A stretch of 64,000 bases of DNA from NCBI RefSeq assembly GCF_900236475.1, contig NZ_LT963352.1:4820001-4884000 (forward strand). Direction: 5' to 3'. The notes below the pieces were generated by a model. The model saw only the letters and a list, made by a program, of their open reading frames with translations. It was not told the origin of the DNA and searched no databases. The position numbers and the translations under genes were made by a program. The DNA comes from Streptomyces chartreusis NRRL 3882. GTDB lineage: Bacteria; Actinomycetota; Actinomycetes; Streptomycetales; Streptomycetaceae. Positions 6,671 to 18,547 of this stretch are shown here, one piece after another; position 1 is the first letter of the stretch; every line of letters begins with the position of its first letter.

Positions 6671-6764
6671 GCTTCGATGCTCGTGCGTGCGGGGGCGGCG
6701 GGCGTCGGACCGGCGGTGGTAATCGGGGTGAGGCGTGTCGTACCCGGGTACTACCGTTGCCGGC

Positions 6765-7334
6765 ATGAGCTATGTGATCCGGTCCGTCCGTGCTGATGAG
6801 TGGCCTGCGGCGAAGGAGCTGCGGCTCGCGGCGCTGCGGGATCCGGTGGCGCACCTGGCCTTCCTGGAGACGTACGAGGAGGCCGCGGCCAGGCCGGACT
6901 CCTTCTGGCGGGAGCGGACGGCCGGTGCCGCCGAAGGGGCGGACCGGGCGCAGCAGATCATCGCCGAGGGGCCGGACGGGCGGTGGGTGGGGACGCTGAC
7001 CGTGCTCGTGGAGGAGCCCGGGACGACGGACTGGGCCGGGTTTCCCGTGGAGCGGAAGCAGGGGCATGTCGTCGGCGTGTTCGTGCGGCCCGAGGAGCGC
7101 GGGAGTGGGCTCACCGAGGTGCTGTTCGACGCGGCCCTGGAGTGGGCGTGGGGGCGGGGGCTGGAGCGGGTGCGGCTCATCGTGCACGAGGAGAACGGGC
7201 GGGCGCAGCGGTTCTACCGCCGGGCCGGGTTCCTGCCGAGCGGGTTGGCCGTGCCGCTCGGGGACTCGGGGGAGCGGGAGTTGGAGTTCGTGCTCGAGCG
7301 AAGCTCCGTGGGGGTGCCCTTCTCAGACCGGTAG
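6765..7334 (+). CDS. GNAT-family N-acetyltransferase
   Basis: A 189-aa acetyltransferase. Motif A is readable (VVGVFVRPEERGSG, an R/QxxGxG/A-type acetyl-CoA loop at about 104-117), followed by the late motif ENGRAQRFYRRAGF. The ATG at 6765 (MSYVIRSVRADEWP) is chosen because it begins the first GNAT strand; a GTG at 6735 would add ten unlikely residues. No clear ribosome-binding site precedes it, so the transcript may be leaderless. The last codons run into a repeat-like sequence (7291-7304), and the stop overlaps by 12 nt the convergent gene at 7323. Acceptor substrate unknown. Confidence 0.85.
   Translation: MSYVIRSVRADEWPAAKELRLAALRDPVAHLAFLETYEEAAARPDSFWRERTAGAAEGADRAQQIIAEGPDGRWVGTLTVLVEEPGTTDWAGFPVERKQGHVVGVFVRPEERGSGLTEVLFDAALEWAWGRGLERVRLIVHEENGRAQRFYRRAGFLPSGLAVPLGDSGERELEFVLERSSVGVPFSDR
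7291..7315. repeat. Fragment of a dispersed Streptomyces hairpin repeat inside the GNAT 3' end
   Basis: The 14-mer tgctcgagcgaagc at 7291-7304, followed by a ggggg-tgcc stretch, matches in reverse complement the core of the full repeat at 19537-19585. Here it lies within the last codons of the GNAT gene, at the convergent junction with the VirD4-like gene. Confidence 0.45.
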
Positions 7335-9011
7335 TTCGTCGTGCGGCCAGCGGGCGCGGCCCTGTTCGCGGGAGCGGAGCAGGGCCAGGGTCGGCATGCC
7401 CCGGTCCGCTCCGGTGGCCAGCAGCTCCGGGAGCTGGGGAAGCGGGGCCACGGCGGCGACGTCGTCCAGGACGAGCGTGAATGGTGGGTCGAGGCGACCG
7501 GAGGATGACCGTTCGGCCATGCGCCGGCCGCGCTCGACCACGCTGGAGACGAGGGCCGTCAGGAGGGGCATCGCGCCCGGCTTCGTCCTGGGGTCCTCGA
7601 TGGATTCACCCACCACATAAAGCGTGCCCCCTTCATGGACGAAGGAATCCAGGGCGAGGGCATCATTTCGGTTGGGAGTGCAAGCCTCGCGGATATTGAC
7701 CGTGGAGAGGGCCGCGAGGGCACGGGTCGTCAGCTGCTGGGCCATGTCCCGGCGTTCGGGGTGGGCGGTGAGGGCGCCTTCGAGTTCGCCCGCGGAGCCG
7801 GGGGCGGCCTTGGGGTTGGTACGGAGGATGCGTACGGCGTCCTGGATCTGGGTGCCCTGGGACCAGCGGTGGACGTGGCGGATGGTGCGGCCGTCGATGG
7901 CGGCGGCGTGCAGGTAGCTCCGCAGGAGTGTCTCGGCGGTGTCGCCGAGGGCCTGGTCGAGTTTGGCGGTGGGGCGGACGGGGGTGAGGAGGGCGGTGGC
8001 TCGTTGGGTTGCCGTCGCCTTGTCCTCGCAGCCGGCTGTGGGGGACCAGTGGAGGCGGGCCGGGGTGGAGCAGAGGTGGGTGGGGTCGTAGAGGTGGGTG
8101 GGGCCCAGTTTGGCCCGGGCGTCCTTGGTCTCCTGCCAGAGGGCGGGGTTCGAGGTGACGATGAGGGCTGGGCCCTCCGCGTCGCGTACCGCCTGGGTGG
8201 CGGTCGTCTGGCGGGTCTCCCTCGGGGCTACGAGGATTCTTTCCCACCCGTTCACCCGGTCCTGCCCGAACAGGGGGGCCGGGGTCGTGGGCGCGGCCGC
8301 CGCGTCGGGGGCCGCGCGGCGGGGGGTGGGGACGTCGTGCTGCGTCGGCGCGGGGGTGCTGTGGTGCGTCGGTGCGCTGGCCGTGTGCGGCGGCGGTGGC
8401 GTCTGTACGTCGTGTGGTGAGGGCGTGGGCGCCGTGTACTGCGTCGGCGTCGGCGTGCCGTGTGGGGGCGAGGCCGGGGTCGGTACGCCGTGTTGGGCCG
8501 GTGCCGGCGTCGGTGCGCCGGGCTGGGGCGATGTCGGTGTCCCGTGCTGCCCCGTCGCCGGCACCTCGTGCTGCGTCGGCCCTCCCTCGTACGCAACCCT
8601 CGCCGCACCCGGAGGTGCCGCAGATGCCGCCCGCTCCGCACGGCGCCTCGCCCGGACCGCCCGCCATCTGGCCAGCGTGCCCATCACGAACACCGCCAGG
8701 ACGATCAGGATCATCAGCTGGCCGATGAACAGGCCCCAGAACAGGCCGTAGCCCGAGAGTTCGCCGGGGGGTGTGTCGGGCCAGGCGCCGGGGATGTCGT
8801 GGGGCTGGGCGATGAGGCCGCGCATGGCGAGGGGCGTGCGGGTGAAGGTGACGCCGGACGGCCAGGAGCCGTGGGCGAACAGGGCGGCGAGGCCGGTGGC
8901 CGTCCACACCAGCAGGGTCATGCCGAGGAGGAACGCGAGTATGCCGACCAGCAGGCCGTCGGGGATGCCTCCCTGGCTCTCGCGCTGGATGCGGCGGTCG
9001 TCCGGTCTCAC
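7323..9011 (-). CDS. VirD4/TraG-like coupling protein with degenerate P-loop
   Basis: A 562-aa protein at the end of the type IV secretion-like operon. Two transmembrane helices (about 17-45 and 93-113) are followed by a Pro/Thr/Gln/His-rich linker (about 145-235) built from imperfect PTP-QHG-type repeats, then an ATPase-like domain. Position, topology and the C-terminal strand TLVLDDVAAV followed by ADRGMPTLALLRSREQ resemble VirD4/TraG coupling proteins. Where the Walker A loop should be, the text reads ILVAPRETRQTTA, with no GxGKS/T; the Walker B acid is DD. It may therefore act as a non-hydrolysing partner or substrate adaptor. GTG start with GGAGGA upstream. The family assignment is inferred from context and remote resemblance. 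Confidence 0.72.
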   Translation of the reverse strand: MRPDDRRIQRESQGGIPDGLLVGILAFLLGMTLLVWTATGLAALFAHGSWPSGVTFTRTPLAMRGLIAQPHDIPGAWPDTPPGELSGYGLFWGLFIGQLMILIVLAVFVMGTLARWRAVRARRRAERAASAAPPGAARVAYEGGPTQHEVPATGQHGTPTSPQPGAPTPAPAQHGVPTPASPPHGTPTPTQYTAPTPSPHDVQTPPPPHTASAPTHHSTPAPTQHDVPTPRRAAPDAAAAPTTPAPLFGQDRVNGWERILVAPRETRQTTATQAVRDAEGPALIVTSNPALWQETKDARAKLGPTHLYDPTHLCSTPARLHWSPTAGCEDKATATQRATALLTPVRPTAKLDQALGDTAETLLRSYLHAAAIDGRTIRHVHRWSQGTQIQDAVRILRTNPKAAPGSAGELEGALTAHPERRDMAQQLTTRALAALSTVNIREACTPNRNDALALDSFVHEGGTLYVVGESIEDPRTKPGAMPLLTALVSSVVERGRRMAERSSSGRLDPPFTLVLDDVAAVAPLPQLPELLATGADRGMPTLALLRSREQGRARWPHDELPV

Positions 9012-9022
9012 GCGTCCTCCCC

Positions 9023-10432
9023 CTACGCCACCGTCGATTCGGAGTCACCCAGGTGGTGTTCCACGAAGGCCGCCGCGCGTTCCTCCGCCTCGAGTTCGGC
9101 GGCGCGCAGGGCGTCGTCCTCGAGGTCGGCGGAGGACTCGGTCATCGCGCGGTCGGTGAACACCAGGGGGCGTTCGGTCTCCGTGACCAGGTGTTTGACG
9201 ACCTGGACGTTGCCGTTGACGTCCCAGACGGCGATGCCGGGGGTGAGGGTCGGGATGATCTCGACCGCCCAGCGGGGCAGGCCGAGGACCCGGCCCGTGG
9301 CCCTCGCCTCGTCGGCCTTCTGGGCGTAGATCGTCCGCGTCGAGGCCATCTTCAGGATCGCCGCCGCCTCCTTCGCCGCCGCGCCGTCCACCACGTCGGA
9401 CAGGTGGTGGACGACCGCCACGAACGACAGGCCCAGTCGCCGGCCGAACTTCAGCAGGCGCTGGAAGAGCTGGGCCACGAAGGGGCTGTTGATGATGTGC
9501 CAGGCCTCCTCGACCAGGAAGATGCGCTTCTTCCGGTCGGGGCGGATCCAGGTGTGCTCCAGCCACACGCCGACGATCGCCATGAGGATGGGCATGGCGA
9601 TGGAGTTGCGGTCGATGTGGGACAGGTCGAAGACGATGAGCGGGGCGTCCAGGTCGATGCCGACCGTCGTCGGGCCGTCGAACATGCCGCGCAGGTCACC
9701 GTCGACCAGGCGGTCCAGGACCAGGGCCACGTCCAGGCCCCAGGCCCGTACGTCGTCTATGGCGACGTTCATCGCCTCGGCCGACTCGGGCTCGGGGTGG
9801 CGCAGCTGCTCGACGATGTCGGTGAGGACCGGCTGGCGGTCGACGATGGTCTCGTTGACGTAGGCGTGCGCGACCTTCAGGGCGAAGCCGGAGCGTTCGT
9901 CCAGGCCGTGGCCCATCGCGACCTCGATGATCGTGCGGAGCAGCGCGAGCTGGCCCGTCGTCGTGATCGCGGGGTCGAGCGGGTTGAGGCGGATCCCCAT
10001 GTCCAGGGCCGCCATCGGGTCCAGGCGGATGGGAGTTATCCCCAGCTCCTGGGCGATGAGGTTCCATTCACCCACCCCGTCCTCGCCCTGGGCGTCCAGC
10101 ACGACGACCTGACGGTCGCGGAAGCGGAGCTGGCGCAGGACGTACGTCTTCTCCAGCGCCGACTTGCCGTTGCCGGACTCGCCGAGGACCAGCCAGTGGG
10201 GTGCGGGGAGCTGCTGGCCGTACAGCTGGAAGGGGTCGTAGATGTAGCCCTTCCCGGAGTACACCTCGCGGCCGATGATGACGCCGGAGTCGCCGAGGCC
10301 GGGGGCGGCGGTCGGGAGGTAGACCGCCTGGGCCTGGCCCGTGGACGTGCGCACCGGGAGCCGGGTCGTCTCGACCTTCCCGAAGAGGAAGGACGTGAAG
10401 GCGTCGGTGAGGACGGACAGCGGGTCCCGCAT
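9023..10432 (-). CDS. VirB4-like ATPase (C-terminal motor domain)
   Basis: A 469-aa cytoplasmic ATPase. Walker A is GESGNGKSA (about 83-91) and Walker B IFLVEEAWHII, followed by the FGRRLGLSFVAVVHHLSD region that characterises VirB4/TraC proteins. It corresponds to the motor half of canonical VirB4; the N-terminal half appears to be encoded by the next gene upstream (10439-11995). It would power pilus or secretion-channel assembly. It lies 6 nt from the upstream gene and 11 nt from the VirD4-like gene, consistent with one transcript. Confidence 0.87.
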   Translation of the reverse strand: MRDPLSVLTDAFTSFLFGKVETTRLPVRTSTGQAQAVYLPTAAPGLGDSGVIIGREVYSGKGYIYDPFQLYGQQLPAPHWLVLGESGNGKSALEKTYVLRQLRFRDRQVVVLDAQGEDGVGEWNLIAQELGITPIRLDPMAALDMGIRLNPLDPAITTTGQLALLRTIIEVAMGHGLDERSGFALKVAHAYVNETIVDRQPVLTDIVEQLRHPEPESAEAMNVAIDDVRAWGLDVALVLDRLVDGDLRGMFDGPTTVGIDLDAPLIVFDLSHIDRNSIAMPILMAIVGVWLEHTWIRPDRKKRIFLVEEAWHIINSPFVAQLFQRLLKFGRRLGLSFVAVVHHLSDVVDGAAAKEAAAILKMASTRTIYAQKADEARATGRVLGLPRWAVEIIPTLTPGIAVWDVNGNVQVVKHLVTETERPLVFTDRAMTESSADLEDDALRAAELEAEERAAAFVEHHLGDSESTVA

Positions 10433-10438
10433 CAGGTC

Positions 10439-11995
10439 CTACCTCCGAATGCCGGTGGCGAAGGGAAGGGTGTTCACGAAGGCGCGGTGGTGCTCGCGGT
10501 CGCACCATTCCAGCTTGAGGTACGACTTTCCTGCCGAGGCCCTTATCGTGCGCTTGTCGCGGGCGAGCGCGTCGGGGGAACGCGAGGAGACGGTGATGTA
10601 GCCGACGAGGTTCACACCGGCGGCGCCGCTGGCGAGGTCCTCGCCGCGCTGGTCGAGCCGGGAGTGGGCGGCGACGTCACGCGGGTCGACGGTGCGGTTC
10701 ATCTTGGCGGCGCGGGACGCCTCGGCCTCGTCGTTGGTCTTCTCCGTGAGCATGCGCTCGATGGCGACCTCGGTGGGTTCGAGGTCCATGGTGACGGCGA
10801 CCGTGCGGATGACGTCCGGGGTGTGGACGAGCAGCGGGGCGAGGAAGTTGACGCCGACGGGGGTCATCGGCCACTCCTTCACCCAGGCGGTGGCGTGGCA
10901 CCAGGGGGCGCGGGTGGAGGACTCGCGGGTCTTGGCCTGGAGGTAGGTGGGCTCCATGGCGTCCAGCTCGGCCGGCCAGGCATTACGTTTCGTCATCGCC
11001 TGGATGTGGTCGATCGGGTGGTCCGGGTCGTACATGGAGTGGATCAGCGAGGACAGCCTGCTCTGGCCGAGCGGCTGCCGTACGCGGATGTCGGCCTCCT
11101 GGAGGCGCGAGCAGATGTCGGTCAGCTCGCGGGCCATGACGACGGCGAGTCCGGCGTCCCGGTCGACCTTGCCGCCGTGGGCGCGGGCGGCCCGGGCCAT
11201 GGCGTTCGCCTCGGCGGCGAGGTCGCGGGTGTAGTGCATGCAGGCGACGAGGTAGGCGCGGTGCTGCTCGCTGCTGGTGGACACCATCGACTGGAGCTGG
11301 TCGTAGGACTGCTGCAGCCACGGCGGTGCCTTGTCGTCGCCGCGGACGGCGACGTCCTTGGCGTGGGCGTCCGGGTCGGCGGGGAGGGTGCGGGCGAGCA
11401 TCTGCAGGCGGGTGACGAAGCCGTCGCCGTTGGCCACGTGCTTGAGCAGCGTGCCGAAGCGGTCGACGAGGGCCTCCTGGTCCTCGCTGTCGCGCAGGCC
11501 GACGCCGGGGCCCTCGATCTCGATGGCGGCGGTGACGGTCTTGCGGTCGGCGTGTAGCAGGACGGCGATCTCGTCGGGGCCGAAGGGGGCGGACAGCCAG
11601 GTGATCCGGCCGATTCCCGGGGGTGGGCCGATCTCGACCTCCCGGCCGTCGAGCCGGGTGCCGGCCTCGATGACGGCGGAGCGGTAGGTGGCGCCCTGCT
11701 TCAGGGTCCGCTTGTAGCTGCGGTTGATCTCGAACCACTTGTAGAAGGTGCGGTGCTTGTACGGCACGTACACGGCGGCCAGCGCCAGCATCGGGAACCC
11801 GGCGAGCAGCACGATGCGCAGGGACAGCACGGGGACGAGGAGCCCGCACATCATGCCGAGGAACGCGCCCACGACGATCAGGGCGATCTCGCCGGTCTCG
11901 CGGTTGCGGCCGATGATCGCGTTCGGCCGGGCGCGGCCGATCAGATACGTACGGCGGGGCGTGACCGGATGGGACACGTGGGACTCGGTCGTCAA
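10439..11995 (-). CDS. SCO6880-family protein (VirB3/VirB4 N-domain-like)
   Basis: A 518-aa protein. Residues 10-30 carry the conserved TYLIGRARPNAIIGRNRETGE segment, followed by two transmembrane helices (about 35-75) resembling VirB3/PrgI-type inner-membrane proteins. A long soluble region shares the layout of the VirB4 N-terminal domain, with the HHRAFVNTLPFATGI ending that often precedes the motor domain. Together with the 9023-10432 ATPase it makes a split VirB3-VirB4. The start overlaps the upstream stop by 4 nt (ATGA). From memory, the family is actinobacterial and found both in conjugative elements and in chromosomal loci. Confidence 0.85.
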   Translation of the reverse strand: MTTESHVSHPVTPRRTYLIGRARPNAIIGRNRETGEIALIVVGAFLGMMCGLLVPVLSLRIVLLAGFPMLALAAVYVPYKHRTFYKWFEINRSYKRTLKQGATYRSAVIEAGTRLDGREVEIGPPPGIGRITWLSAPFGPDEIAVLLHADRKTVTAAIEIEGPGVGLRDSEDQEALVDRFGTLLKHVANGDGFVTRLQMLARTLPADPDAHAKDVAVRGDDKAPPWLQQSYDQLQSMVSTSSEQHRAYLVACMHYTRDLAAEANAMARAARAHGGKVDRDAGLAVVMARELTDICSRLQEADIRVRQPLGQSRLSSLIHSMYDPDHPIDHIQAMTKRNAWPAELDAMEPTYLQAKTRESSTRAPWCHATAWVKEWPMTPVGVNFLAPLLVHTPDVIRTVAVTMDLEPTEVAIERMLTEKTNDEAEASRAAKMNRTVDPRDVAAHSRLDQRGEDLASGAAGVNLVGYITVSSRSPDALARDKRTIRASAGKSYLKLEWCDREHHRAFVNTLPFATGIRR

Positions 11996-13326
11996 CGCCC
12001 TTCACCTCCCGTGCGATTGGTACTGCTGTTGCGGGTGTTGCTGGCGTGGGGAGTGTTGACGGGGCTGCCCGAACGGGGTGCGGGTGCGGCGGAGGGGACA
12101 GATCCGCCGCCGCCGTTCGAGGGGCGCGAGCTGTGCGCGGCGACTCCGCCGGAGGCGGGGTTGCTGGGGCGGGGGGCGGAGGACTGGCTGCCTCCGCCGT
12201 TGTTGTCGGCGCGGGAGCTGTGGGTCTTGATGCCCTGCGCGACCAGGGTCGCGGGGGAGCTGATGACCGCGGCGGCCTTGCTCTCCGCGCCCTGCATGAG
12301 GCGGTTGTTGCGGGAGCCGGCGATCTCGTCGCCGAAGCCGGGGACGAAGCGGTAGATCATCGCGCTGGCGAAGATGGCGAGCAGGATGATGGCGAGGCCG
12401 GAGACGACGGCGGAGAAGGCGTCGGGGCCGTCGTCGGCGGAGAGCGCGCCGGCGAGGCCGAGCACGATCACGATCACGGGCTTCACCAGGATCACGGCGA
12501 TCATGATCCCCGCCCAGCGGCGGACGTGGCCCCACAGGTTCTTGTCGACGAGGCCGGCGTAGACGACGGTGCCGAGGAGTGCGCCGACGTAGAGGAGCGC
12601 CGCGCGGATGACGAGCTCCAGCCACAGCACTCCGGCGGCGAGGATGCTGACCAGGGAGACGACGATCAGCATGATCGGGCCGCCGCCGATGTCCTCGCCC
12701 TTGTTGAGGGCCTCGGAGAACGTGCCGAAGAAGGCGTCGGTCTGGTCGCCGGTGGCTTTGGCGAGGACCTCGGTGATGCCGTCCGTCGCGGAGACGACGG
12801 TGTAGAGGATCAGCGGGGTGAAGGCGGAGGCGAGCACGGTCAGCCAGAGGAACCCGATGGCCTCGGACAGGGCGGTGGTGAGGGGCACGCCGCGGACGGC
12901 TCGCTTGGCGACGGCCAGGAGCCAGAGCAGGAGCGTGAGGATCGTCGACGCGGCGAAGACGACGGCGTACTGCTGGAGGAACTTGGGGTTCGTGAAGTCG
13001 ACGTTCGCCGTCTCCTTCACGGCGTCGCTGAGCTTGTCGACGGTCCAGGAGGCGGCGTCGGCACAGCCCTTGGCGAGCGAGGAGAGGGGGTCGAGGGTGG
13101 AGGTGGGGTCTAGGCGGGGTGCGGAACCGCCCCCTCCGCCGGCGCCGCCACCTTCCTCGCAGTACTTCCTGGCAGGCGGAGCGATCAGCGAACAGTCGCT
13201 GCTCTCGCTCGGTGTCGGCGAGGGTGTGGGCGCTGCCAGGGCTCGTGCGGCGAACATTAGGGCGGACGCCTGTGCGGCGGCCACGAAGCCGACGAGCCTG
13301 AGCACGCGGTGCGAGCTACCGGGCAT
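11992..13326 (-). CDS. Polytopic membrane protein, VirB6/TrbL-like
   Basis: 444 aa with an N-terminal hydrophobic segment resembling a signal sequence (8-30), a short cysteine-containing extracytoplasmic loop, then about six strongly hydrophobic helices between roughly 130 and 345. The C-terminal 110 residues are low-complexity Ser/Gly/Pro/Asn-rich. This is the layout of VirB6/TrbL inner-membrane channel subunits. The start at 13326 (MPGSSHRVLRLVG) is chosen because it overlaps the preceding stop by 11 nt; an upstream in-frame start would lie wholly within the previous gene. It probably forms the membrane core of the apparatus. No enzymatic motif was seen. Confidence 0.8.
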   Translation of the reverse strand: MPGSSHRVLRLVGFVAAAQASALMFAARALAAPTPSPTPSESSDCSLIAPPARKYCEEGGGAGGGGGSAPRLDPTSTLDPLSSLAKGCADAASWTVDKLSDAVKETANVDFTNPKFLQQYAVVFAASTILTLLLWLLAVAKRAVRGVPLTTALSEAIGFLWLTVLASAFTPLILYTVVSATDGITEVLAKATGDQTDAFFGTFSEALNKGEDIGGGPIMLIVVSLVSILAAGVLWLELVIRAALLYVGALLGTVVYAGLVDKNLWGHVRRWAGIMIAVILVKPVIVIVLGLAGALSADDGPDAFSAVVSGLAIILLAIFASAMIYRFVPGFGDEIAGSRNNRLMQGAESKAAAVISSPATLVAQGIKTHSSRADNNGGGSQSSAPRPSNPASGGVAAHSSRPSNGGGGSVPSAAPAPRSGSPVNTPHASNTRNSSTNRTGGEGR

Positions 13327-14140
13327 ACGTGAAGCCTCCGTACTCCTCGACGGCCTTCGCCATCTCCTCGGCGCTGGAGGCCCTGTCATCGCCGGGAACG
13401 GGCGTCGGGCCGTCCTTCTGAGAGTGCGTCACGATTTTCCAGTCGCCGTTGGCCCACTCGAGTTGCATCGTGATGGTGAACCAACTGCTCGTGACCGGAG
13501 TCGTGGAATTCTCGCCCGCAAGGCCAAGGAGACCGCTGCACCAGACCTCGACGGTCGCGCTGCTGGCGGAATACTCAGTGACCTTGGTGCCGATCGGGCT
13601 CGTTCGGGACACGAACGTGAAGCCCGCGGGCGCTGAGCCGTCCTCGTTGAGGCCGATGTTCTTGTTGAACTCCGGTGTGTAGGCCTTGTCCAGTCTCGCT
13701 TCGAAGTCGGCCACCCGGGAGGGAGCGATGATGGCCCGCAGGACGGCGTCACGCCTTGCCTTGTCGAACATGTCGGCCGAGCCCAGTGCAACGGCGTAGT
13801 TGGCCGCCGCGCTCTCCACTCCCTGCTGGTCTTGCGCGAACCCCGATGGAGTGCCGCCGGTCTTCGACTGCACCGGCCGTTTTCCCGAAGGCGCCGTCGC
13901 CGCTGCCTCCGGTTTGTCGGCGCTGCCCGCGGACGAGGGTTCGCCTCCGCCCCGGTTCGCGAAGGCGATCGCGGCGATGAGGAGGACCACTACGCCGACC
14001 ACCGTGACCAGGCTGCGGGACGACGAGCGGGGGCGGCGGGGGGTGCCGTAGGGGTCGGCTCCGGTGTCGGGCAGGCGGGTGCGGGTCTGGCCCGTGCCGC
14101 CGTAACCGCCGGAGGCCTCGTGCTCGTCACCGAGACTCAT
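13316..14140 (-). CDS. VirB8-like bitopic membrane protein
   Basis: 274 aa: a charged, Gly/Pro-rich cytoplasmic N-terminus (1-50), one transmembrane helix (about 52-72, SLVTVVGVVVLLIAAIAF), a disordered linker and a soluble C-terminal domain (about 110-270). Size, topology and position between VirB6-like and VirB2-like genes fit VirB8/TcpC, which has an NTF2-like periplasmic domain and bridges channel parts. The ATG at 14140 overlaps the stop of a 32-aa ORF (ATGA). The C-terminal domain contains a single cysteine (EVWCSGLLG). Identification is by topology and context, not by a definitive motif. Confidence 0.75.
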   Translation of the reverse strand: MSLGDEHEASGGYGGTGQTRTRLPDTGADPYGTPRRPRSSSRSLVTVVGVVVLLIAAIAFANRGGGEPSSAGSADKPEAAATAPSGKRPVQSKTGGTPSGFAQDQQGVESAAANYAVALGSADMFDKARRDAVLRAIIAPSRVADFEARLDKAYTPEFNKNIGLNEDGSAPAGFTFVSRTSPIGTKVTEYSASSATVEVWCSGLLGLAGENSTTPVTSSWFTITMQLEWANGDWKIVTHSQKDGPTPVPGDDRASSAEEMAKAVEEYGGFTYAR

Positions 14141-14235
14141 GCCGCGTACGCCCCCTCGACGTCGTACCGCTCGTACTCCTCGTACGACGGTAGCCGTGCT
14201 GGTTCCCGCGCGGGCGCGGTGTGGTGACTCGACAT
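14137..14235 (-). CDS. 32-aa microprotein translationally coupled to the VirB8-like gene
   Basis: A short ORF starting MSSHHTAPAREPARLPSYEE and ending in an acidic/tyrosine-rich segment. Its stop overlaps the start of the VirB8-like gene in an ATGA junction, the same coupling used by other members of this operon; this is the main evidence that it is translated. There is no transmembrane helix or known motif, and the upstream Shine-Dalgarno is weak. It could be a small structural or regulatory subunit, or simply a ribosome-delivery ORF. Confidence 0.55.
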   Translation of the reverse strand: MSSHHTAPAREPARLPSYEEYERYDVEGAYAA

Positions 14236-14326
14236 CAGGGAAACGCAACCTTCGCCGGTGGGCACGACGGGCGGGTGGGATGGAGGGGGAGCCGGGCGTG
14301 CCCGGCCGGGGCGGGTGGGGCCCGGC

Positions 14327-14635
14327 CTACACGGCCATGCCGTACACGATGGTGAAGAGCGTGCCGAGCGAGCCGATGATGAAGACTCCGGTGAGGCCCG
14401 CGATGATGAGGCCCTTGCCCTGCTCCGCGCTGAAGGTGTCCCGCAGGGCGGTGGCACCGATGCGCTGCTTGGCGGCGCCCCAGATGGCGATGCCGAGGCA
14501 GAGCAGGATGGCCACCGCCATCACGACCTCGATCATCACCTTGGCCTCGTTGCCCAGGCTGCCGAAGGGGCCCCAGTCCGGAGCGATCCCGCCGATGATC
14601 GTGTTGATGTCTCCCTTATCGGCCGCAAAGAGCAT
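14327..14635 (-). CDS. VirB2/TrbC-like small membrane protein (pilin-like)
   Basis: 102 aa with two hydrophobic helices (about residues 33-53 and 77-100) joined by a short basic loop (AAKQRIGATALRD), the usual layout of VirB2/TrbC pilins. It is the first gene of the secretion-like operon. The start at 14635 (MLFAADKGDINTI) has AGGGG 11 nt upstream; an in-frame ATG at 14668 has its AGAGG directly adjacent to the start codon and is less likely. There is no obvious cleavable signal peptide, so it may sit in the membrane as a channel or scaffold subunit rather than a long pilus. Confidence 0.72.
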   Translation of the reverse strand: MLFAADKGDINTIIGGIAPDWGPFGSLGNEAKVMIEVVMAVAILLCLGIAIWGAAKQRIGATALRDTFSAEQGKGLIIAGLTGVFIIGSLGTLFTIVYGMAV

Positions 14636-15002
14636 GTAAGTCACCGCCCCTGTTGGGTAGTTCCGCATCCTCTGCGGTCGTGCAGAGGTCAGGCCTCATT
14701 CTCGCCGACAATGACGCTGTCGTATGTCGACTTGGCGTCATTGATTGGCGGGTTTCGTACGAATACCTTGCCACTGTTCCGTGCCGGCCCCTAAGGGAGG
14801 GGACGGACGGTGCACGAAGGATCGTATAGTCACTCTGTGTATCACGGCAGTTCACGCCGGGCAATGAGGCCTGAGTGGAACCTGTCGTGTGGTTCCGTCG
14901 TTGTGCCCTTTTGCGACCTGCGTCACCTTCCGGACCGTTCCTGACGGTCGGTCGGGTGAGGGATCGTCCCGGTGTTCTCCGGGTGAAGGCTACCTGGCGC
15001 GG
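14636..15002. other. Intergenic region upstream of the secretion-like operon
   Basis: About 370 nt without a convincing gene. It must hold the promoter of the minus-strand operon. A -10-like TATACGAT on the minus strand (14821-14828) and an AT-richer stretch at 14700-14760 are candidates, but I see no clear -35 partner. No known operator was recognised. Confidence 0.4.
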
Positions 15003-15072: not shown

Positions 15073-16362
15073 TCAGCCGGTGAAGGCGCCGACTCCGTTC
15101 GGGGTGCCCCAGCCGGTCGGGCCGTCATAGCCCGTTCGGGCGGTGCAGAAGTAGCTGGTGGCGCAGGTGCCGTTGGTCCCGCTGGTGACGTCGTTCAGGG
15201 CGGAGGTCTTCGCGTAGGGGAACCTCGCCGGGTAGGAGCCGCTGGAGGGGGTGCCCGCGAGGGCGTAGACGCTCGCGATGATCGGGGCGGAGGCGCTGGT
15301 GCCGCCGTAGGTGGCCCAGCCCTGGCCGTCGGCGCCGTAGGTGTCGTAGACGGAGACTCCGGTCGCCGGGTCGGCCACGGCCGAGACGTCGGCGATCATG
15401 CGCTTGGCGCAGCCGGTGTCGGTCTGCCAGGCGGGCTTGGCGTCGTAGGCGGAGCAGCCGGAGCCGGTGCCTTCGGTGCTGCTGGTCCGCCAGACGCTCT
15501 CGGTCCAGCCGCGGGTGGTGGAGGAGGTGGTGAGCCTGGTGCCGCCGACGGCCGTGACGTACTTGGAGGCCGCCGGGTACTCGGCGCCGTAGCCCCCGTC
15601 GCCCGCGCTGACGGTGATGGCGACGCCCGGGTGGTTGAAGTAGGCGGAGTCGTACGTCGCGTCGGAGGAGGATTCGCCGCCGCCGTAGCTGTTGGAGACG
15701 TACTTGGCGCCCAGGCTGACGGCCTCGTTGACGGCGGTGCCCAGGTTTGCCATGGAGGCGGACTTGGCCTCGACGAGGAGGATGTGGCAGTTCGGGCAGA
15801 GCGCACTGGCCATGTCGAGGTCGAGGGATATCTCGCCGGCCCAGCCGCTGTCGGCGGTGGGGAGGGCGGTGGTGGAGCCGGTCTGGCTCACCTTCTTGAA
15901 GCAGCCGCCGGCAGTGGTGCAGGCGGGCAGGCCGTAGTGCGAGCGGTAGGCGGCGAGGTCGGACTCGGCATTGGGGTCGTCGTAGGCGTCGACGATGGCG
16001 ATGGTGCGGCCGGTGCCGTTGCTCGCGGCGGCGGAGGTCAGGCCGTAGGCGGCCCGGAGGTCGGAGGGGCCGTAGCCGGAGGGGGAGGAGGCCTCGGCGG
16101 CCCCGGGTGAGATGCCGTGCTGCTGCTGGAAGGCGGTGCGGCCGCCCGTGACGCGCAGGGCGTTGCAGGCCATCTCGTCCTTGTGGCGGGGGAGCGCGCA
16201 GGAGCGGGTCCAGGTGACCCGGGAGGTGCTCGCCCGGGCGGTGTCGGCGTGGGCGGCGGTGGTGAGGCCGGTGAGGAGGAGTGCGGCGGTGGCGGTGACG
16301 GCGGCGCCTGTGCGGCGCCATCTGCGGCGGCCGGCGGGAGAGTTGTGCGGTGTCGTGCGCAA
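15073..16362 (-). CDS. Secreted sedolisin-type (S53) serine carboxyl peptidase
   Basis: A 429-aa exported protease. A signal peptide with a basic n-region (RRRWRR) and hydrophobic core ends near residue 39. Catalytic residues of family S53 are visible: E177 and D181 in GEISLDLDMA, and S356 in the GGTSASAP motif. A large pro-kumamolisin domain is absent; only about 50 residues precede the SGYGPSDLRAAYGL start of the catalytic domain. The start codon is TTG at 16362, supported by AGGAGG 7 nt upstream. Three cysteine pairs suggest a disulfide-stabilised extracellular enzyme. Probable role: nutrient proteolysis at acidic pH, inferred from the family. Confidence 0.88.
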   Translation of the reverse strand: MRTTPHNSPAGRRRWRRTGAAVTATAALLLTGLTTAAHADTARASTSRVTWTRSCALPRHKDEMACNALRVTGGRTAFQQQHGISPGAAEASSPSGYGPSDLRAAYGLTSAAASNGTGRTIAIVDAYDDPNAESDLAAYRSHYGLPACTTAGGCFKKVSQTGSTTALPTADSGWAGEISLDLDMASALCPNCHILLVEAKSASMANLGTAVNEAVSLGAKYVSNSYGGGESSSDATYDSAYFNHPGVAITVSAGDGGYGAEYPAASKYVTAVGGTRLTTSSTTRGWTESVWRTSSTEGTGSGCSAYDAKPAWQTDTGCAKRMIADVSAVADPATGVSVYDTYGADGQGWATYGGTSASAPIIASVYALAGTPSSGSYPARFPYAKTSALNDVTSGTNGTCATSYFCTARTGYDGPTGWGTPNGVGAFTG

Positions 16363-16651
16363 GGTACAGCCTCCTGGCAGTGGTGGACAGAGGCCTGCGG
16401 GTGGGGGATCCGCCGGTACGGTTCCCGGCGGGGGCGGCGACCCGCGACGACGATCGCTTGTTGAGTACGCGACAACAAGACGGGTTTCGGAATCCTGACT
16501 TCCGCCTTACTGAAGCGGGTGCGGGGCTTACCGATCGGTGACGGGCCGATGGCCGCGGGATGGGCGCGGCTTGACCCAAGGGGCCGGGATCCAGGGGTGC
16601 TTGGGGTCGGCGGCAACGTTTTTCTCACCTTCGTCGGACACAGTGGCCCCG

Positions 16652-17389
16652 ATGAAGCGCGTCCTGTCCCTCGCCGTGGTCCTTGTCGCCCTCACCTCCG
16701 CGTCCACCGCGGTGGCCGACGACGGGGCCGGGCCCCTCGGTGTGACCGTCACCGCGGGGGCGGTCGCGGGGAGCGCGCGGGTCGGGGTGCTCGTCCCGGC
16801 CGGCCGGGCGGCCCACCCGGCCGGTGCCCACTTCTGCACCGCGTCCGTGGTGCGGGCGCCGTACCGGAATCTCGTCGTCACCGCGGCGCACTGCCTGGAC
16901 GGGCGTGGGGAGCTCGTGTTCGTGCCCGGGTACCGGAACGGCCGTGCGCCCTACGGGGTGTGGAAGGTGAAGCGACGGTTCCTGCCCCATGGGTGGGTCG
17001 AGGGGCGGCGGGAGGACAGTGACGTGGCGTTCGCCGTGGTCGCGCCGCGGGGCGGGAAGGGAGTCGAGGACGTCGTCGGTGGTTACCGGTTCGCCACCGG
17101 TACGGCGACGGGGGCGACGGCCGTGACCCTCACCGGATACCCCGACTCCCGCGAGACGCCCGTCAGCTGCACCAACAAGCCGACCGTGCACAGCCCCACC
17201 CAGCAGCGCATCGTGTGCCCTGGATTCACCGGCGGCACCAGCGGGAGTCCCTGGGTGAACGGCGACGGGCAGGTCGTTGGGGTCCTCGGCGGCCATGACG
17301 ACGGCGGGACGACCCCCGACGTGTCCTACAGCGTGGTGCTCCGCGCGGAGGCGGAGCGGCTGTACCGGGAGGCGGCGGGTGACCCGTGA
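16652..17389 (+). CDS. Secreted trypsin-like (V8/S1 family) serine protease
   Basis: 245 aa with a signal peptide (1-22, ending STAVADD). The catalytic triad is readable: H80 in VVTAAHC, D124 in SDVAFAVV and S197 in GGTSGSPW. The G-T-S-G-S-P form is typical of the small glutamyl/V8-like branch. The start at 16652 is chosen because the signal peptide begins there; a longer in-frame start at 16538 adds a non-secretory tail. It is divergent from the sedolisin gene, making a pair of extracellular proteases that separates the secretion-like operon from its likely cell-wall hydrolase at 17546. Confidence 0.87.
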   Translation: MKRVLSLAVVLVALTSASTAVADDGAGPLGVTVTAGAVAGSARVGVLVPAGRAAHPAGAHFCTASVVRAPYRNLVVTAAHCLDGRGELVFVPGYRNGRAPYGVWKVKRRFLPHGWVEGRREDSDVAFAVVAPRGGKGVEDVVGGYRFATGTATGATAVTLTGYPDSRETPVSCTNKPTVHSPTQQRIVCPGFTGGTSGSPWVNGDGQVVGVLGGHDDGGTTPDVSYSVVLRAEAERLYREAAGDP

Positions 17390-17545
17390 CGGGGCCGTGC
17401 GCCGGTTGCCCCCGGTGTGCCGCCCCGTGCTGTCGGCTGTTCCCCTTTCCGCCCCGACTCTCCTCCCCGTGATCATTCCGGCCTTCGGCGGCCCCCTCTA
17501 CACTGACCAGGCGACGGACTCCTGGCCGGCGAGGGGCGGTTGACG

Positions 17546-18547
17546 GTGCGTAAGGCATGGATCGTGGCGACTGTTGCGATCAGCTCCGCCCTGGCCTTCG
17601 TGATGCTGCTCGTCGTCGGGGTCTACATCGTCGCCGGAAACCTGGTCAACGGGGTCGGCGGTGGGGCGAAGGCGCTGGCCAAGGGGTCGGTGCCCGCCGC
17701 GTACTCGGCCCTCGTGCAGAAGTGGGGCAATCTCTGCCCCGCCATCAGCCCGGCCCTGCTCGCCGCCCAGCTCTACCAGGAGAGCGGCTTCAACCCCAGG
17801 GCACAGAGCCACGCCGCCGCGCAGGGGATAGCGCAGTTCATCCCCGGCACCTGGGCCTCCCACGGCATCGACGGCGACGGCGACGGCGACCGTGACGTGT
17901 GGGACCCGAAGGACGCGATTCCCTCCGCCGCCTCGTACGACTGCGAACTCGCGTCGTACGTGAAGAAGGTTGGCGGGAATCTGACCGAAAACATGCTGGC
18001 TGCATACAACGCGGGGGCGTACGCGGTGATCAAGTACGGGGGCGTGCCGCCGTACACCGAGACCCGGAACTACGTGAAGCGGATCACGACGCTCTCGGAG
18101 AGCTTCGCGGCGCCCGTCGGGCGGGTCGACCCCTCCGAGCAGGCCGCCGGCGCCATCGAGTACGCGCAGAAGAAACTCGGCACGCCCTACCTCTGGGGCG
18201 GCACCGGCACCGCTGAGCAGGGCGGACGCTTCGACTGCTCGGGATTGACCCAGGCCGCCTACGAGACCGTCGGCATCAAGCTGCCGCGCGTCGCCAACGA
18301 CCAGTACAACGCCGGGCCGCACCCCGCGCGGGACGAACTGCTCCCCGGAGACCTCGTGTTCTTCTCGGACGACCTCACCAATTCGCGTGCCATCCGGCAT
18401 GTCGGCATTTATGTCGGAGGTGGGTACATGATCGACGCGCCGCGAACGGGTGCGGTGATCCGGTTCGACCCGATCGACACCCCCGACTACTTCGGGGCCA
18501 CCCGGGTCACCGAAGATGGCGCGAAAGCACTGCCGACGACGGTGTGA
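17546..18547 (+). CDS. Membrane-anchored bifunctional peptidoglycan hydrolase (SLT + NlpC/P60)
   Basis: 333 aa. One N-terminal transmembrane anchor (about 8-30) is followed by a lytic transglycosylase domain with catalytic E79 in YQESGFNP and the AQGIAQFIPGTWASHG and AAYNAG motifs. A C-terminal NlpC/P60 endopeptidase domain has C231 (FDCSGL) and H285 (RHVGIYV). Such two-domain enzymes are the VirB1-type wall-opening components of Gram-positive type IV systems, and this gene lies near the VirB-like operon. It could also act in growth or sporulation. The GTG at 17546 has GAGGGG 9 nt upstream; a TTG at 17540 is too close to it. Confidence 0.9.
   Translation: MRKAWIVATVAISSALAFVMLLVVGVYIVAGNLVNGVGGGAKALAKGSVPAAYSALVQKWGNLCPAISPALLAAQLYQESGFNPRAQSHAAAQGIAQFIPGTWASHGIDGDGDGDRDVWDPKDAIPSAASYDCELASYVKKVGGNLTENMLAAYNAGAYAVIKYGGVPPYTETRNYVKRITTLSESFAAPVGRVDPSEQAAGAIEYAQKKLGTPYLWGGTGTAEQGGRFDCSGLTQAAYETVGIKLPRVANDQYNAGPHPARDELLPGDLVFFSDDLTNSRAIRHVGIYVGGGYMIDAPRTGAVIRFDPIDTPDYFGATRVTEDGAKALPTTV

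Follow-up and report, generated by a model that had tools for sequence, protein, structure and literature searches.

The cmd gene row and the anatomy of cmdA

The window, a 64,000-nucleotide stretch of the 8.98-Mb chromosome of Streptomyces chartreusis NRRL 3882, contains the gene row cmdA-cmdF including the VirB4-like CmdB, as in S. coelicolor, where the same six-gene row cmdABCDEF has been described (PMC2782261) and can be taken as orthologous by position. The name cmdA for the gene at 7323..9011 (minus strand, GTG start, 562 aa) follows from this operon position, by a comparison of gene rows with that paper. The gene product has no P-loop, is truncated at its C-terminus and derives from VirD4/TrwB-type proteins, and the best 80 named matches of cmdA are from Streptomyces throughout, except for one unclassified actinobacterium. 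The remaining genes of the row are also encoded on the minus strand: cmdB (9023..10432) for a VirB4-like ATPase with an intact GESGNGKS motif, cmdC (10439..11995) for a member of the SCO6880 family, cmdD (11992..13389) with a SCO6881-family match under the curated cut-off and a putative VirB6-like role, cmdE (13316..14248) for a protein of 310 aa without confident family and with a presumed VirB8-like role, and cmdF (14327..14668) for a small membrane protein of 113 aa that may be pilin-like. The GESGNGKS motif of CmdB is intact at 80 of 80 named loci and at seven of eight further loci, the exception being a second cluster with GDTGRGKS.

A gene for a cell-wall hydrolase with SLT and NlpC/P60 domains (17540..18547, plus strand) is the divergent neighbour of the operon; this arrangement was also found at three further loci (L160, L164 and L165), and in the second cluster (L166) the hydrolase gene and the operon share a strand. 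Between cmdF and the hydrolase, positions 15073-17389 of the window hold a 429-aa open reading frame, which has no Pfam match and resembles a secreted serine peptidase by eye, together with a gene for a trypsin-like peptidase. Among the 44 loci holding both cmdF and the hydrolase, seven contain a homologue of the 429-aa frame, and in 13 the gap between both genes is within about 0.55 kb. The sole PF03432 match in the genome, the one family used in the relaxase search, is located about 380 kb away (C1:5207117). On the other side, cmdA and a convergent gene for a GNAT acetyltransferase (6735-7334) share their terminal 12 bases (7323-7334), and a homologue of the acetyltransferase is present at 80 of 80 named cmd loci.

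CmdA starts with a predicted transmembrane domain (8622..9011, residues 1-130) with long helices at 18-47 and 88-130 followed by a basic stretch, a prediction that rests on model helices, hydrophobic sequence and the fact that the profile match of the relatives starts there. It is followed by a fast-evolving linker (8241..8621, residues 131-257) of 25% Pro, 17% Ala and 15% Thr, in which PTP occurs five times, compared with a mean of 1.16 expected from 10,000 shuffles (p 0.005). The Pro/Thr repeat linker described in the initial annotation of this DNA is therefore real, and its length ranges from 55 to 182 residues with a median of 90 in the 127 of 134 orthologues with placeable anchors. The former Walker A position (8199..8237, residues 259-271) reads ILVAPRETRQTTA, and further downstream lie a putative all-alpha domain with a modelled TrwB/Cag-beta-like fold (7683..8054, residues ~320-443) and the Walker B remnant LVLDD (7461..7475, residues 513-517), which contains the Walker-B-like LDD already recognized in the initial annotation and has Asp in place of the Glu of LDE. 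The sole Pfam family above cut-off in CmdA is TraG-D_C at residues 510-559 (7335..7484), which covers positions 1-50 of 126 of PF12696 and ends with LLRSREQGRARWP, where the relatives carry LQS and run on.

Catalytic elements of the nucleotide-binding site

These positions were compared in 134 CmdA orthologues (L002-L110 and L131-L155, that is 109 and 25 sequences, excluding the window's own copy), which include some species probably counted twice and do not represent 134 independent species. A Walker A-like motif at the former P-loop was found in 0 of the 134, with the site of L155 read by eye because the script had misplaced its anchor. Therefore, chance or sequencing error does not fit, and the loss of the P-loop, proposed from the single sequence, extends throughout the clade. 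A functional P-loop elsewhere in the chain, which would have spoken against this proposal, was sought in the same set: no [A/G]x4GK[S/T] is common to the orthologues, and the scattered matches in five of them are found in differing places.

The losses go beyond those listed in the initial annotation, as they also concern the Walker B Glu, the Gln of LQS and the C-terminal end within TraG-D_C. LDE at Walker B was seen in none of the 134 orthologues, which carry LDD (124), LED (5), LHD (2), LEL (1) or LDT (1) or have no such motif (1), and the Gln position of LQS is occupied by Arg in 132 of the 132 orthologues that reach it, compared with Gln in the relatives and in TrwB. Furthermore, 132 of 134 chains stop 5-23 residues past an RSxEQxxxRW motif and the other two (L155 and L147, the latter with a stop codon at Walker B) terminate before it. 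The C-terminal ~100 residues, which account for half of TraG-D_C, are missing and this truncation is common to the orthologues, so that CmdA does not contain a complete C-terminal RecA-like part. From this clade-wide loss of catalytic motifs we infer that CmdA does not hydrolyse ATP.

The comparison set consisted of 16 chromosomal relatives (L112-L122 and L124-L128), which without exception keep GK[S/T], the Gln at the sensor place (read by eye) and an extra C-terminal stretch, which comprises 120-162 residues in the eight that could be measured by script; the Asp-Glu of Walker B was found in 15 of them by script and in L118 by eye. The last part of L124 appears frame-shifted. Of the two plasmid relatives examined, one (L130) has GKT and the other (L129) GKG, as in Cag5.

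A sequencing error, a frameshift or a wrongly placed gene end in cmdA is highly improbable. The stop codon of cmdA does overlap the convergent acetyltransferase gene, and truncation by a rearrangement is imaginable, but the orthologues share the same end and the acetyltransferase homologue accompanies every named locus. In addition, no remnant of a coupling-protein C-terminus is readable 3' of the cmdA stop (best tblastn E 0.08).

It is also improbable, though somewhat less so, that CmdA is still an ATPase or a nucleotide-binding protein, either with a non-canonical site or in a mixed oligomer with catalytic residues of CmdB. The Walker B Asp is retained in most orthologues and all 81 aligned cores carry R267 at the former P-loop, which would be in line with such an activity; against it stand the missing shared P-loop motif and the missing Glu, Gln and C-terminal part, as well as the behaviour of TrwB K136T, which is reported to be transfer-deficient and in its soluble form without ATPase activity (PMC7431656). 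The nucleotide-binding domain is said in the same source to define the coupling protein family. In view of the K136T defect, CmdA is hardly able to work in the way of an ordinary coupling protein.

Descent of CmdA and the domains it keeps

Distant relatives of CmdA were gathered from other actinobacterial genomes and plasmids. An hhalign comparison of 52 CmdA sequences with a profile of 12 relatives, one of which is the intermediate L111 discussed below, gave a probability of 100% and an E-value of 1.8e-55 over 441 columns including part of the membrane region. This profile-profile alignment pairs ILVAPRETRQTTA with the Walker A motif of the relatives, which reads VLIGPPRSGKGLHL in a Citricoccus plasmid protein, and thus confirms the loss at the expected place. 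The relatives' profile in turn matches the solved structures of TrwB (E 5e-19) and Cag5 (E 1e-10), whereas the CmdA profile alone gave no match to solved structures by sequence, so that the relatives' profile is needed for this step. Both matches together substantiate the earlier designation of CmdA as VirD4-like. In the phylogenetic tree CmdA forms a single clade (100/100) which is adjoined by L111 (98/94), with the caveat that long branches meet at this join. Taken together, the descent of CmdA from a coupling protein of the VirD4/TrwB type is well supported by these sequence comparisons.

A plasmid search with CmdA matched 439 records, none of which covers 80% of the query and all of which are below 60% identity, and two plasmid regions among the matches listed (40 of 439) were examined. 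The Citricoccus plasmid NZ_CP133844 (L129) carries the same row of a SCO6880-family gene, a TraC (VirB4-like) gene and a gene for a coupling protein with a TraM-recognition domain. Its TraC is 28% identical to CmdB and its coupling protein is 36% identical to CmdA over residues 274-555, but the latter differs from CmdA in having GPPRSGKG, LDE, LQS and a full C-terminus, with GKG, as in Cag5, instead of GK[S/T]. A search of viral contigs for further relatives gave nothing usable.

An intermediate state was found in a sister-lineage genome of another family of the same order (G037), which contains a complete cmd operon with a divergent wall hydrolase gene (identities: cmdB 83%, cmdC 73%, cmdD 54%, cmdE 41%, cmdF 80%). 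Its CmdA (L111) is 41% identical to that of the window, reads GPARSGKATH, LVLDDPAE and ALRS, and continues for 86 more residues past the motif where Streptomyces CmdA ends. Read simply and from this one genome, the sequence suggests that the first losses were those of the Walker B Glu and of the Gln of LQS, and that Walker A and the C-terminus would have followed later on the Streptomyces stem.

A second T4SS-like cluster in one Streptomyces genome (L166, G025), probably of the SCO6871-6884 type, shows 43% identity for cmdB, 40% for cmdC, 39% for cmdD, 41% for cmdF and 50% for the hydrolase, and its coupling protein, unlike CmdA, keeps GPMGSGKT and the C-terminus. As it holds relatives of cmdA-F, with two cmdE-like matches, this cluster represents a natural control within the same genome. 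In the S. chartreusis genome itself no second TraG-D_C protein was detected above the Pfam cut-off (PF12696), and a second canonical coupling protein serving the Cmd machine was therefore rejected at this threshold; a weak TraG-D_C match (E 0.115) lies at C1:3813274.

The structure prediction suggested earlier for a comparison with VirD4/TrwB was informative for one part of the protein. Two models of CmdA, both of low overall confidence (mean pLDDT 57 and 60), share a confidently predicted helical domain at ~320-443, which resembles the all-alpha domain of TrwB, and the nucleotide-binding part has no confident model. For this domain the seven best rows of a second-look structure aligner are all coupling proteins (TrwB with Z 7.9-10.9 and Cag-beta with Z 7.8-8.0), the first unrelated row following at Z 4.9, and in another run the same seven led with Z 7.7-10.5, all values to be read with the aligner's own caveat that a Z under about 13 may reflect a common arrangement in helical bundles. 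The rows beneath the coupling proteins in the latter run were viral NS3 helicases (Z 6.1 and 6.0, residues 254-546), a likeness too weak to use. Foldseek alone gave no significant match with the CmdA models (best E 0.6 and 0.32). On the basis of these models CmdA appears to retain a TrwB-type all-alpha domain, a predicted fold shared with TrwB of R388 and Cag-beta. In related coupling proteins the all-alpha domain recognises cargo. TrwB (PMC7431656) and Cag-beta (PMC9886983) are described as ATPases, whereas CmdA is without the catalytic elements.

Constraint on cmdA and its proposed role in the Cmd machine

The pN/pS values of CmdA, calculated from 81 codon-aligned sequences and 600 random pairs, are 0.45 for the membrane part, 0.76 for the linker, 0.58 for the former P-loop and 0.26 for the core (residues 278-562), compared with 0.064 for cmdB. 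The estimates indicate that the CmdA core is under purifying selection, weaker than that on CmdB, and that CmdA evolves faster. All 62 genomes of the same genus that were searched (37 including the window's own and 25 others) contain CmdA, with two of them (G017 and G032) showing the N-terminal part only, probably at contig ends.

These data bear on the main rival to a functional CmdA, which is that the machine no longer moves DNA, the coupling protein has become unneeded and cmdA is a slowly eroding vestige with little function. In favour of it, deletion of cmdA in S. coelicolor caused no apparent change in sporulation and no overproduction of pigment (PMC2782261), and a mutagenesis study of actinorhodin down-modulators names SCO4127-4131 and, in the accessible part of the paper, not SCO4126 (PMC6585502). 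Moreover, cmdA and cmdE are the most divergent operon genes in G013 and G037, CmdA is shortened or interrupted by a stop codon in G079 and G064, and cmdA lies in two distant pieces in G012. On the other hand, the presence of the gene in all same-genus genomes searched, the low pN/pS of the core and the 128 of 307 core columns invariant among 81 sequences speak against slow erosion, and we regard it as rather unlikely.

Single genomes show the state of the gene in detail. In G079 (L155/L162) the CmdA chain stops short of Walker B, in G064 (L147/L165) a stop codon is located at Walker B, and in G085 (L154/L163) Walker B reads LDT; CmdB keeps GESGNGKS in all three. In G012, cmdA is split into two pieces about 1.25 Mb apart (L168 from 6157 and L167 from 7075), with the membrane part remaining with the operon, the core at C1:8920783 and the break in the linker region, which is due to either a rearrangement or a misassembly.

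The published work on the operon, as far as its accessible text goes, connects cmdABCDEF of S. coelicolor (SCO4126-4131) with defects in sporulation and chromosome segregation, with aberrant branching and chromosome mis-segregation in cmdB and whole-operon mutants (PMC2782261). Changing lysines 90 and 404 of CmdB abolished complementation, although the authors did not exclude protein instability, and deletion of the whole cluster left the transfer of an SLP2-derived plasmid with its own transfer genes unchanged (PMC2782261). A type IV-like channel was raised there as a possibility in 2009. According to these mutant phenotypes CmdB is likely the motor and CmdA an accessory protein, or one with a role outside the assays used.

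We therefore favour, with some reservation, the interpretation that CmdA is a pseudo-ATPase coupling protein. In this view Cmd would be a chromosomal, domesticated T4SS that goes back to a conjugation machine of actinobacteria, is powered by CmdB and has been taken into use for sporulation in Streptomyces, and CmdA would be its docking, receptor or scaffold subunit, anchored in the membrane. The long linker might let the all-alpha domain reach the base of the Cmd channel, where this domain could still bind substrate, adaptor or channel subunit, and CmdB would supply all energy. That CmdA works through the neighbouring VirB4-like CmdB, as suggested in the initial annotation, is plausible in view of the intact Walker A of CmdB and the effect of its lysine changes; as cmdA deletion caused no sporulation defect, the coupling role, like a contact with CmdB, is one that we infer. 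Apart from the missing deletion phenotype, several points speak against the pseudo-ATPase docking subunit, namely that SCO4126 is unnamed among the down-modulators, the faster evolution compared with CmdB, the Walker B defects in G079, G064 and G085, the low confidence of the models, the Foldseek null result and the long branches at L111. A more far-reaching version, which we put forward only tentatively, is that a whole conjugation machine has become a permanent apparatus of Streptomyces development, where cargo would be recognised without ATP hydrolysis by the coupling protein. CmdA as a dead-ATPase receptor would present protein or DNA cargo via its all-alpha domain, CmdB alone would drive the process at sporulation and the ATPase would have been dismantled stepwise.

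The Cmd operon was already known, as was its VirB4-like member, and PMC2782261 treats CmdA, in its accessible text, as a predicted membrane protein only and does not mention a coupling-protein descent or a lost ATPase site. Both were likewise not found in the other literature searched, mostly titles and the starts of abstracts, and the terms cmdA, cmdB and SLP2 do not occur in a 2025 review on T4SS. A genus-wide and selected descendant of coupling proteins without a working nucleotide-binding domain would separate the receptor from the motor role and make this split testable. It also supports the view that the Cmd operon, so far poorly understood, encodes a domesticated T4SS, and an ATPase-dead CmdA offers an explanation for the deletion of cmdA behaving unlike the deletions of its neighbours. 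Furthermore, every strain of one Streptomyces population is reported to carry a defective ICE close to the chromosome centre (PMC9513070), and our guess is that this element may be the cmd operon.
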